Shown: in pieces, positions 1 to 46,970 of the stretch
Layout of the letters: each line of letters starts with the position of its first letter
Numbering within the stretch: position 1 is the stretch's first letter
DNA from: Candidatus Ozemibacter sibiricus
Lineage (GTDB): Bacteria; Muiribacteriota; Ozemobacteria; Ozemobacterales; Ozemobacteraceae
DNA: 64,000 nt
Reading direction: 5' to 3'
Assembly: GCA_003327425.1 (NCBI GenBank)
Contig: QOQW01000009.1
Location: 1 to 64,000 of the forward strand
Made by a program: the position numbers and the translations under genes
The notes under the pieces: model-generated
Told to the model about the DNA's origin: nothing
Databases searched by the model: none
What the model saw: only the letters and a program-made list of their open reading frames with translations

Positions 1-120
1 CTTCGACCGACAGGGAATTCCCCGACTGGTGGTAGCATGACCGCTCAACCCGCCGAACCGCCGTATGCGGACCCGCATGTACGGTGGTGTGACAGGGAAA
101 GTTCGCGAGAACCTACCTAT
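1..120 (+). mobile_element. 3' end of a group II intron (domains V and VI)
   Basis: Positions 55-91 fold as an intron domain V: ACCGCCGTA/TGCG pairs with CGCA/TACGGTGGT, leaving a 2-nt bulge on the 3' arm and a short ACC loop. A second hairpin follows with a GCGA tetraloop (GTTC-GCGA-GAAC, 101-112), and the segment ends CTACCTAT near 120, as expected for domain VI and an AY 3' end. The layout resembles bacterial class C introns. The reverse transcriptase gene and 5' part would lie left of the window. Activity cannot be judged. Confidence 0.6.
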
Positions 121-515
121 GTCGATATCAGCCCTCTATCGCAAGAGAGCAAGGGGCCGACCGACGTCCCGCGCTCCACCATCACGCGGAAAAAAACGTT
201 TTGACCAAATGCCAGCAAACGAGCGTTTCGTTAGACCTTTCGCTCAGTCGAAGGCGGTAAAAAGCGATTGTTCCGGTTGCTCGTACGGGCTGGCAGGGCG
301 AACCGCGCCGGCCGGCTTAATGGCGCGCCCCAGAAGCGAGAAAAGCCGGGCTGCCGCTCTCTTCGGGCGTTTTTGGGCAAGATCCTAGTACGACTACCGC
401 ACTTAGGCTGACTATTTTTCATCAATCAGCTCAACCATGCAGTTTTCGGGGTGCTCCAACCGATTTCCAAAAATCAGCATTCCGTGCTGGTTCTCGACCA
501 AGTACGGTTGTCATA
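121..515. other. No gene seen downstream of the intron end
   Basis: About 395 bases with short open frames only and no ribosome binding site. Base composition is less GC-rich than the core genes, as in many mobile-element flanks. I see no terminator, tRNA or repeat here. Confidence 0.5.
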
Positions 516-44507: not shown

Positions 44508-45860
44508 TCAGTCCCAGCCGGAGGCGGGCTCCTGGTCGGGGAGCCGGTCGGGAAGCGAGCCGGGAGGCAAAGCCCGCGGTGGGAACCCGGTGCCCGGTCC
44601 GGGCAGGTCGAACGTCGGCGTGGCCGGGCGGGGCAACGGGGGGAAGGCTGGTTCTGCCGCGGTCGGCACGGCCGGGGTCGGTTCCTCGCTCTTCGGGACC
44701 GGCATGCCGTAGATGGCGCCGTTGCGGCAGAACACCAGGTCGAGCCGGCCATCCGGCAGCGGCGGATGGAACATGGCGTTCTCGACGCAGACCCAGGCCG
44801 GCTCGCCGGAAGCGGCCGGCAGATAGGCGAACGAGCCGTGCCTGTCCAGGAATGATGATTTGTACAAAACGGCCATGCCCCGCCGATGGGGGTGGGCCGT
44901 CAGGATCGGCCCGAGATCGCGGCGCCAGACCACCTCGCCGGTCGAGACATCGAGACACTGCAGGCCGGAGCGGTCGGCCAGCATCACCAGATCGCCCACC
45001 ACCTTGGCCGCCAGGAAGGTGGCGCCCAGCCGGGCCGTCCAGGGCCGCCGTCCCGATAGCGAGGCGCCGATGACCTGGCGGCCGTCGCTGGCCACGATGC
45101 CGATGGTATCCCCTTCGGCGAACACGTGATGGAGTCCGGGACTGTCGAGGCGCAGGCGCAGCGCGCCAGTCTCCTGCTCGGCGCCGACCACGCTGCCCTG
45201 CGAGGTGACGAACAGGAACAGATCCTGGGTGGGAATGGGCGGGAAGATGGCCACCGGCCCGGAGAAGCTCCAGAGCGGCTCGCCTGCCTCGAGGTCGTAG
45301 ACCTGCAGCCGGAACGTGGCGCCCGGTCCATCGTCCTGCCCGTAGGTGCAGGCCAGCGCCACCCGCCCGACCGCGGTGTGCTGCACCGGGTTGGGGAGCT
45401 GGATGTCCCAGAGCGGATCGCCCGACCGGCCTTCGACCGCGATGAGGGTGCGGGCATCGGTCGGGACCAGGAGCCGATCGCCCGGCAGCGCCTGCGGTGG
45501 CAGGGGGGAAGTCTGCAGGGTGGCCCGCTCCCAGAGCAGGGTCAGGGCTTCCCCGCGGTAGGCGCGCAGCCCCGCTTCTCGGTCGGCCACCACCACCGCC
45601 GACGGCAGGGCGACCAGCGGGTGGCGTGGGGGCCGGGGCAGCGCTTGCCGGGCTACCACCTGGCCCTGCCGGTCGAGCAGGGCGATCTCGCGCCGGTCGC
45701 CCAGCACCGCGATGTGGTCGCCCAGGCGGCACGGCGCGGTCAGGATCTCGCGATCGAAGTGCGCTCGCCAGGCCGGCGTCGACCCTTGCGGGGTCAGCCA
45801 CACCTGAACCACGACCAGGGTGAACAGGACGAGCAGCGCGCCGACCGCCGCTTTCTTCAT
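44508..45860 (-). CDS. Membrane-anchored PQQ/WD40-like beta-propeller protein
   Basis: 450 residues from 45860. The start overlaps the stop of the cytidylate kinase-like gene (ATGA), which excludes the longer open frame. One N-terminal TM or uncleaved signal (AAVGALLVLFTLVVVQVWL) precedes repeated beta-propeller blades of PQQ-like type: IAVEGRSGDPLWDIQL, YDLEAGEPLWSFSG and LDVSTGEVVWRRDL. The C-terminus is a disordered Pro-rich tail (PRALPPGSLPDRLPDQEP). It probably binds a partner in the periplasm. PQQ cofactor use is unlikely without an enzyme domain. Its link to the kinase gene is by operon only. Confidence 0.75.
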   Translation of the reverse strand: MKKAAVGALLVLFTLVVVQVWLTPQGSTPAWRAHFDREILTAPCRLGDHIAVLGDRREIALLDRQGQVVARQALPRPPRHPLVALPSAVVVADREAGLRAYRGEALTLLWERATLQTSPLPPQALPGDRLLVPTDARTLIAVEGRSGDPLWDIQLPNPVQHTAVGRVALACTYGQDDGPGATFRLQVYDLEAGEPLWSFSGPVAIFPPIPTQDLFLFVTSQGSVVGAEQETGALRLRLDSPGLHHVFAEGDTIGIVASDGRQVIGASLSGRRPWTARLGATFLAAKVVGDLVMLADRSGLQCLDVSTGEVVWRRDLGPILTAHPHRRGMAVLYKSSFLDRHGSFAYLPAASGEPAWVCVENAMFHPPLPDGRLDLVFCRNGAIYGMPVPKSEEPTPAVPTAAEPAFPPLPRPATPTFDLPGPGTGFPPRALPPGSLPDRLPDQEPASGWD

Positions 45861-46543
45861 GCGGGCCCGGGGCTCGGCAGGCGAGCCACCTGATCGAGGA
45901 TCAGCTCCACGCAGCGGTCGATGTCGAGCCGGCTGGTGTTGAGCGTCAGGTGGTAGAGATGCGGATCGGCCCAATCCACGTCGAAAAAGTCGGCGATGAA
46001 GGTGCGGGCCGCCTCGTCGCTCTGCGCGATGACTTCACGGGCTTTCGCCTCATCGACCTTCTGCTGGTCCATGATGCGGGCGATGCGGGTGGCCTCGTCG
46101 GCGACGATGCGCAGATGCAGCGCACTGGGGTGGTCGGCCAGGATGCGGGCCCCGCCGCGTCCGATGATGATGGTGCGGTCCTTGGCTGCCAGTTCCCTGA
46201 TGACCTGCTGCAGCACGGTCAGGTACTCGTCTTCCTTGAACTCGGTCTGGGGAAAGGGCGTGAACAGATCGATGCCGTCCCAGTCGAGAGGGCCGATCCC
46301 GAAGGGGTGGAAGACTCGCCCGCCTTTGGCGATGCTGGCCAGGGCCTCCTGGAAGAACACGCTGATCCGGTTGTAGGTCTCCTGATCGAAGTCCTGCAGC
46401 TCTTCCTGGGGCTTGCCCATCTTCTTGGCGATCTCGTGCAGGATCTCTTTGTCGGCGCAGGTGTAGTGCAGCGCTTCCGCCAGTTTCAGGGCGATGAACG
46501 ATCCGCCTGAGCCGATTTCCCGGGAAATGGTGATGATGGCCAT
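45857..46543 (-). CDS. Cytidylate kinase-like protein
   Basis: 228 residues from 46543. AIITISREIGSGGSFIALKL is the P-loop region of the Cytidylate_kin2 family (SREIGSGG in place of the usual GxxGxGK). ALHYTCADKEILHEIAKKMG, TIIIGRGGARIL and LHLRIVADEATRIARIM follow the family pattern of nucleoside monophosphate kinase-like proteins. The family is common in anaerobes; its physiological substrate is uncertain. It heads a two-gene operon with the beta-propeller protein. A good promoter (46603-46632) and a 25-nt hairpin in the leader lie upstream. Confidence 0.75.
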   Translation of the reverse strand: MAIITISREIGSGGSFIALKLAEALHYTCADKEILHEIAKKMGKPQEELQDFDQETYNRISVFFQEALASIAKGGRVFHPFGIGPLDWDGIDLFTPFPQTEFKEDEYLTVLQQVIRELAAKDRTIIIGRGGARILADHPSALHLRIVADEATRIARIMDQQKVDEAKAREVIAQSDEAARTFIADFFDVDWADPHLYHLTLNTSRLDIDRCVELILDQVARLPSPGPA

Positions 46544-46558
46544 CCTGTCATCCTTTCC

Positions 46559-46583
46559 CATGGAGGGTCCTGGTCCCTCCATG
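46559..46583 (-). promoter_or_regulatory. Leader hairpin of the cytidylate kinase-like operon
   Basis: CATGGAGGG-TCCTGGT-CCCTCCATG is a perfect 9-bp inverted repeat between the promoter and the start codon, ending 16 nt before the ATG. It contains a GGAGGG that could mimic or sequester a ribosome binding site. It could also be an operator. Confidence 0.5.
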
Positions 46584-46602: not shown

Positions 46603-46632
46603 ATTATCAGGGGGGCCGGCCTCGAATGTCAA
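46603..46632 (-). promoter_or_regulatory. Promoter of the cytidylate kinase-like operon
   Basis: On the minus strand, TTGACA (46627-46632), an 18-nt spacer and GATAAT (46603-46608). Confidence 0.65.
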
Positions 46633-46664
46633 AAATTTCCGGAATTGTGCCGATGACCTCTTCG

Positions 46665-46683
46665 GTACGGAACGAATCCGTAC
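46665..46683. promoter_or_regulatory. Palindrome upstream of the 49-residue ORF
   Basis: GTACGGA-ACGAA-TCCGTAC is a perfect 7-bp inverted repeat in the divergent region, 59 nt before the small ORF. It may be an operator or an RNA hairpin. Confidence 0.5.
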
Positions 46684-46742
46684 GATGAATCAAGTAGCCG
46701 GTCCACACTGACAGATGGAGTAGCGAGTTCAAGGAGGGAACC

Positions 46743-46892
46743 ATGGTCCACCCCGGAATGGTAGGAATCACCGAGTTGATGACCGACGACAGCTTCGTGG
46801 ATTGGATGGAGGAGCAGGCCGAAGAGCTGCTGGAAAACCTCTCCACCTTCGAAGTGTATTCGCTGTATTGCGCCCAGACCGGGGAGGATTGA
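46743..46892 (+). CDS. Small acidic 49-residue protein or peptide
   Basis: ATG at 46743 is preceded by AAGGAGGG 5 nt upstream, one of the best ribosome sites in the window, and a T-rich terminator follows 40 nt after the stop. The product begins MVHPGMVGITELMTDDSFVD, has an acidic amphipathic helix (WMEEQAEELLENLS) and ends TFEVYSLYCAQTGED with one Cys. It has no signal peptide. The layout of an acidic leader-like helix and a short aromatic/Cys tail is reminiscent of a peptide precursor, but no modifying enzyme is nearby. It may equally be a small regulator. Family not recognised. Confidence 0.65.
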   Translation: MVHPGMVGITELMTDDSFVDWMEEQAEELLENLSTFEVYSLYCAQTGED

Positions 46893-46931
46893 TCCCCGCT
46901 TCGCTCCACCCCTTCGTTCGCTCCGCCGCCG

Positions 46932-46970
46932 CTGCCCCGCCTTGCTGCCTGCGCGGGGCAGTCGCTTTTT
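46932..46970 (+). terminator. Rho-independent terminator of the small ORF
   Basis: CTGCCCCGC (46932-46940) pairs perfectly with GCGGGGCAG (46953-46961) around a 12-nt loop and is followed by TCGCTTTTT. Confidence 0.8.

Follow-up and report, generated by a model that had tools for sequence, protein, structure and literature searches.

A frame of 49 codons in the window, by which we mean the whole 64,000-nt stretch of DNA analysed here, is, judged by comparison across genomes, a real conserved gene under strong protein-level selection. The gene is restricted to one family of uncultured bacteria and its product is undescribed in the libraries searched. A new element upstream has the form of a sigma-28-type promoter and agrees with those found before flgM and flgK in these genomes, and the product, a small protein, probably assists or regulates motility. 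The unit and its surroundings, in window coordinates, comprise:

45857 to 46582, minus strand: gene for a cytidylate-kinase-like protein (PF13189; Pfam E 1.3e-46), the divergent neighbour, a conserved bystander outside the unit
46629 to 46656, plus strand: putative sigma-28/FliA-type promoter P1, TCAA-N16-GCCGATGA, with its -10 box at 46649-46656
46660 to 46688, plus strand: second element, CTTCGG-N16-ACGATGA, present with identical spacing in 8 of 17 orthologue leaders (two of them imperfect)
46665 to 46683, plus strand: 7-bp inverted repeat GTACGGA-ACGAA-TCCGTAC, within the second element
46731 to 46738, plus strand: ribosome-binding site AAGGAGGG, read directly; a GGAG-type site precedes the orthologue starts
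46743 to 46892, plus strand: gene for the small acidic protein, 49 codons, stop included in the span
46928 to 46970, plus strand: intrinsic terminator, with a perfect 9-bp core at 46932-46940/46953-46961, an extended stem to 46965 and TTTTT

As read from the window, the frame opens with an ATG at 46743, closes with a TGA stop at 46890-46892 and encodes 49 amino acids. The reading frame proved to be conserved in relatives: a genome search with the 49 residues found orthologues in 17 of the 24 genomes of Ca. Ozemobacteraceae (Riflebacteria), the window's own genome included, and the 16 non-self orthologues matched the query with E values between 7.3e-24 and 4.6e-10. Among the 56 genomes searched, 18 gave a match at E up to 1, of which 17 were retained, all from the family itself; the match left out (L018 in G015, E 0.157) lies within a frame of 769 aa and was put down to chance. 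When the 24 family genomes were searched with a profile, the identical 17 came back; apart from weak matches, the one addition was a paralogue of 63 aa in G003 (E 7.2e-5), divergent in sequence and counted separately from the orthologues. This paralogue (L019/L160, G003:C106:22437-22571, minus strand) lies behind a gene that looks by eye radical-SAM-like, and the 200 nt shown upstream of it contain no GCCGAT element. The 15 other genomes of the phylum held no convincing orthologue (four weak matches, E 0.35-0.84, and 11 genomes without a match). A scan of one genome per species (84,980 species) found 14 loci for the small protein, most of them labelled Riflebacteria, Ozemobacteraceae, Ozemobacter or Rifleibacterium; three stand under other submitter labels ('bacterium', 'Erysipelotrichia' and 'Methylomirabilis') and apparently correspond to the family genomes G010, G023 and G009. 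In all 136 orthologue pairs pN was below pS (mean pN 0.23, mean pS 0.77), and because this selection coincides with the presence of the protein in 17 of 24 family genomes, the frame is more than a chance one. The portions of the literature consulted on Riflebacteria flagella, Riflebacteria small proteins and Ozemobacter describe the gene nowhere.

At the orthologous loci the cytidylate-kinase-like gene is the divergent neighbour in 14 of 17 cases by clustering, with a fifteenth (L020) recognized by eye, and a DtxR-type regulator (12/17) and FeoB (13/17) come next on the opposite strand, so that the small gene stands alone between divergent and convergent genes. With such flanks in most relatives, and with a promoter-like element, a ribosome site and a terminator of its own, the gene bears out the first-pass annotation in its description of a complete small transcription unit. 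The conserved neighbours as a set are the cytidylate-kinase-like gene, a BamB/PQQ-repeat protein, the DtxR-type regulator and FeoB/FeoA. That they explain the function of the small gene was considered and is weakened by the two genomes of one genus (g6), which carry the gene elsewhere, away from feoB. The kinase is present in five of the seven family genomes from which the small gene is absent, and at the two of these five kinase loci that could be read (G019 and G020) both the small frame and dtxR are missing beside it.

The upstream element was recognized in most of the family. A T[ACT]AA-N16/15-G[CT]CGATRN arrangement, that is, a TAAA-like -35 box, a spacer of 15-16 nt and a GCCGATAN-like -10 box, occurs in 14 of 17 orthologue leaders, that of the window included; the remaining three (L006, L015 and L016) have no TAAA-like -35 box and carry CTTCG in its place, together with a CCGATA -10 box. 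CCGAT is found within 130 nt of the start in 16 of 17 leaders, against 12% predicted by shuffles. In the window's own genome the flgM promoter reads TAAA-N16-TCCGATAT and the flgK promoter TAAG-N16-GCCGATAC, and the published sigma-D motif, as given in an excerpt of the source, is TAAA-N15-GCCGATAT (PMC5200910). The flgM form or a close variant precedes all 13 alignable flgM leaders among the 21 distinct loci read (L233 and L234 duplicate L171 and L172), and a promoter profile was built from these 13 sites alone, the eight loci without an MKVSN start being excluded. With this profile, 14 orthologue leaders score 10.6-17.3, whereas the best of 83 upstream controls from neighbouring genes reaches 9.7, and at a cut of 7 the profile accepts 16 of 17 small-gene leaders vs 4 of 83 controls. 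The scores sum to 203, whereas 300 rounds of shuffling averaged 67.5 (sd 12.9) and never exceeded 104.7. The 17 leaders are related rather than independent sequences, but between genera they vary both in flanking sequence and in distance from the start (40-94 nt). By a plain consensus count several loci are individually weak, and the sum is 161 against a shuffle maximum of 145. Over the 24 genomes exact TAAA-N15-GCCGATAW is only about twice as frequent as in the reversed control, with many matches inside genes.

The second element, which pairs its boxes in the manner of the leaders of L006, L015 and L016, may be a second promoter or an operator. CTTCGG-N16-MCGATR occurs 11 times in the window's own genome, against once in the reversed control, and four other spacings together gave 35 matches there, about nine each. 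By this spacing control there is little enrichment in the window's genus and a modest one genome-wide, the N16 spacing being raised in G003 (16 vs about 5 per spacing) and in G004 (15 vs about 7). In two genomes of the genus, CTTCGG-N16-CCGATR stands about 45 nt before the starts of apparently matching genes. A recurring CTTCGG-N16-GCCGATR was also observed, in different genomes, roughly 20-50 nt ahead of genes that look like counterparts of one another (L212, L215, L216 (own genome), L220, L227, L209 and others); this might represent a further promoter class in Ozemobacteraceae, though here too the spacing control gives modest enrichment.

FliA scores above the cut-off in 23 of 24 family genomes, the window's own among them, flagellin is encoded in all 24, FlgM and FliW in 22 each, and csrA adjoins fliW at all eight loci read. 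Clear TAAA-N16-GCCGAT was not seen before the major flagellin genes or the genes for 270-aa flagellin-like proteins; the latter have TATAAT-like promoters instead, and the flagellin upstream regions hold only CGATA remnants, so that the native sigma-28 regulon is just partly mapped. In the flagellin mRNA leaders (L050-L079) a GCAAGGATGC-like motif, which we take to resemble a CsrA site, lies within 100 nt upstream of the start at 22 of 30 loci. Elsewhere, two genes assigned by eye and place to the sigma-70 family (L163 and L164, 289 and 287 aa, in two genera) directly follow TAAA-N15-GCCGATAW, which suggests that FliA may stand above another sigma factor in a cascade. A 47-aa Cys-containing frame (L127, G009:C9:742-768, minus strand) begins 32 nt after a perfect TAAA-N15-GCCGATAA.

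Against the motility reading, the small gene lies outside the flagellar clusters, beside the kinase-like gene, dtxR and feoB. The three leaders in which CTTCG replaces the TAAA-like -35 box, and the flagellin genes without a clear promoter of this form, also count against it. A FliA-like sigma factor might read the promoter as part of a regulon wider than motility, with the protein serving pili, the envelope or iron. The association with dtxR-feoB in most genomes speaks for this, as do GCCGATA-type sites before genes that by eye are PilM-like, OmpH-like, sigma-70-family, TPR and histidine-kinase-like. Since, of the promoters tested, those of flgM and flgK match best, and since the link with feoB is broken in the two g6 genomes, we regard a wider regulon of this kind as unlikely, though it is the strongest of the alternatives.

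Instead of regulating, the product could serve the flagellum or the chemotaxis machinery as a minor structural part, an export chaperone or an assembly factor. The promoter is of the late-flagellar type, and export chaperones are often small, acidic and helical. However, all seven family genomes that lack the small gene encode flagellin, and six of them have FliA above the cut-off; the small protein is thus dispensable for flagella as such, and its absence from these relatives indicates that it modulates the flagellum and does not build it. The gene is moreover unlinked to flagellar genes and its product matches no known chaperone family, and a structural or chaperone role is somewhat less likely still. 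That the protein is a missing anti-sigma factor or CsrA antagonist was rejected, given the FlgM and FliW counts and the position of csrA beside fliW.

The signals around the frame agree with the first-pass annotation in every main respect. The ribosome site, which had been placed 5 nt before the ATG, lies at that distance if the AGGAGG core is meant, and AAGGAGGG in full at 4 nt. The 7-bp inverted repeat reported for the upstream region is present; it folds at -10 kcal/mol (z -2.1), and in a P1 transcript it would form a 5'-terminal hairpin. Because it occurs only in three genomes of the window's genus, it falls outside the conserved part of the unit. The perfect 9-bp terminator was likewise found (CTGCCCCGC-12 nt-GCGGGGCAG, 46932-46961), with the qualification that its T-run (TTTTT, 46966-46970) adjoins not the core but the end of the extended stem, which reaches 46928-46965 when one mismatch is allowed. 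The 48-nt terminator hairpin folds at -25.5 kcal/mol (z -3.1), a 91-nt stretch at a z of only -1.3, and a terminator-like hairpin with a T-run follows the stop in 13 of 17 orthologues, its sequence differing between genera. A 5' hairpin and a strong terminator would also suit a regulatory RNA in which the frame is secondary, comparable with the sigma-28-dependent sRNAs of E. coli, the existence of which is stated in the part of the source used here (PMC10578931). But the protein is conserved while its codons change freely, the 5' hairpin is confined to one genus and no Rfam family was matched in the small-gene unit, and we consider an RNA function very unlikely. Far from the unit, at window positions 56-126, Rfam matches a group II intron domain (42.3 bits).

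The acidity noted in the first-pass annotation holds: the window product has a net charge of -12, with 12 acidic residues in 49 and no Lys or Arg, and net charge across the family, whose members have about 46-57 residues, ranges from -3 to -13. In an alignment of 16 of the 17 orthologues, M6, G8, T10, E11, L12, D15, F18, W21, E23 and Q25 are invariant, and the whole stretch from residue 6 to 25 shows a strongly conserved pattern (MVG-TEL--D--F--WME-Q). Structure prediction (18 sequences) gave four short helices at residues 9-13, 16-24, 27-31 and 35-46, with a mean pLDDT of 78 and a pTM of 0.57, so the product is predicted to be a compact helical protein. The invariant residues sit around the first two predicted helices, and the conserved portion predicted to fold comprises the first 35-40 residues; the tail is variable. 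Neither Pfam, NCBIfam, PHROGs nor PADLOC provided a usable match (best NCBIfam E 0.23, best PHROG 0.1; none in Pfam at E up to 1), and no relative of the small protein occurred in viral contigs among 58 pattern stretches. Five sequence matches to solved structures were rejected (E 0.43 or worse), and a Foldseek comparison of the predicted fold gave three matches with E 4.9 or worse and none with Z of at least 2. The sequence, read directly, contains no hydrophobic stretch of membrane length, and the product appears to be cytosolic, without enzyme-like, membrane or export features.

The Tyr, Tyr and Cys that had been pointed out in the tail are there in the window, but they are not a family trait: most orthologues have Gln or something else where the window has Cys, the two Tyr alternate with Phe, and in several relatives the tail stops a few residues past the last aromatic residue. 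A peptide precursor was one of two roles suggested in the first-pass annotation. That the gene gives rise to a modified peptide (RiPP) by way of a precursor, or to a signal peptide that is exported, is scarcely credible: the conserved N-terminus and short variable tail do resemble a leader plus core, and the window's own tail has its Tyr, Tyr and Cys, but across the orthologues the tail varies in length and has no conserved modifiable Cys, Ser or Thr, no maturase or exporter was found among the conserved neighbours, no family matches, and the conserved part is predicted to fold. The other suggestion, a small regulator, is the likelier of the two and is strengthened by the sigma-28-type promoter.

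Taken together, we infer that the small gene would be a monocistronic unit transcribed in most of the family by FliA (sigma-28) RNA polymerase, so that the protein would be produced when the late flagellar genes are expressed. It would then bind one partner protein and alter the activity or stability of that partner; given the lack of enzyme-like, membrane or export features and the conservation of residues 6-25, partner binding is the most likely mode of action. As the known feedback parts FlgM, FliW and CsrA are present, the small protein would not replace them. We give an even chance to this reading as a whole, in which a lineage-restricted cytosolic small protein of the sigma-28 regulon acts by partner binding as DegR does. 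More tentatively, and with the balance of probability against it, the protein might belong to a new family of small sigma-28-controlled regulators that, in an uncultured phylum, couple completion of the flagellum to another process; it would be a helical adaptor without kinship to FlgM, FliW or FlgV, and the G003 paralogue would be tuned to a second partner.

What was an anonymous frame of 49 codons now yields a hypothesis that can be tested: that the Ozemobacteraceae, represented here solely by assembled genomes, have a conserved small protein in their late flagellar regulon. The results also indicate that small orphan genes can be given a first clue to their function by matching their promoters to that of flgM, a gene that is easily found. 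The FESNov catalogue of uncultivated taxa, in the excerpt considered here, names Riflebacteria as a phylum with a wealth of unknown families restricted to particular lineages, putative synapomorphies among them (PMC10849945). Among known systems, the anti-sigma-28 factor FlgM (PF04316) resembles the small protein in being small and in having a sigma-28-type promoter in these genomes, but the small protein has no PF04316 match (Pfam, E up to 1) and a separate FlgM is present in 22 of 24 genomes. FlgV differs in having two transmembrane helices, whereas the small protein is strongly acidic and, by reading, has no hydrophobic membrane segment. The nearest parallel may be DegR of Bacillus subtilis, also a small protein. 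In the portion of the source that treats it, degR is a sigma-D (sigma-28-class) target gene whose product controls the activity of DegU (PMC5200910). No family model links DegR to the small protein, and the likeness, which consists in the sigma-28-class promoter, is meant as a functional analogy and not as a claim of family; if the regulatory role is true, the small protein would add a lineage-specific output to sigma-28.
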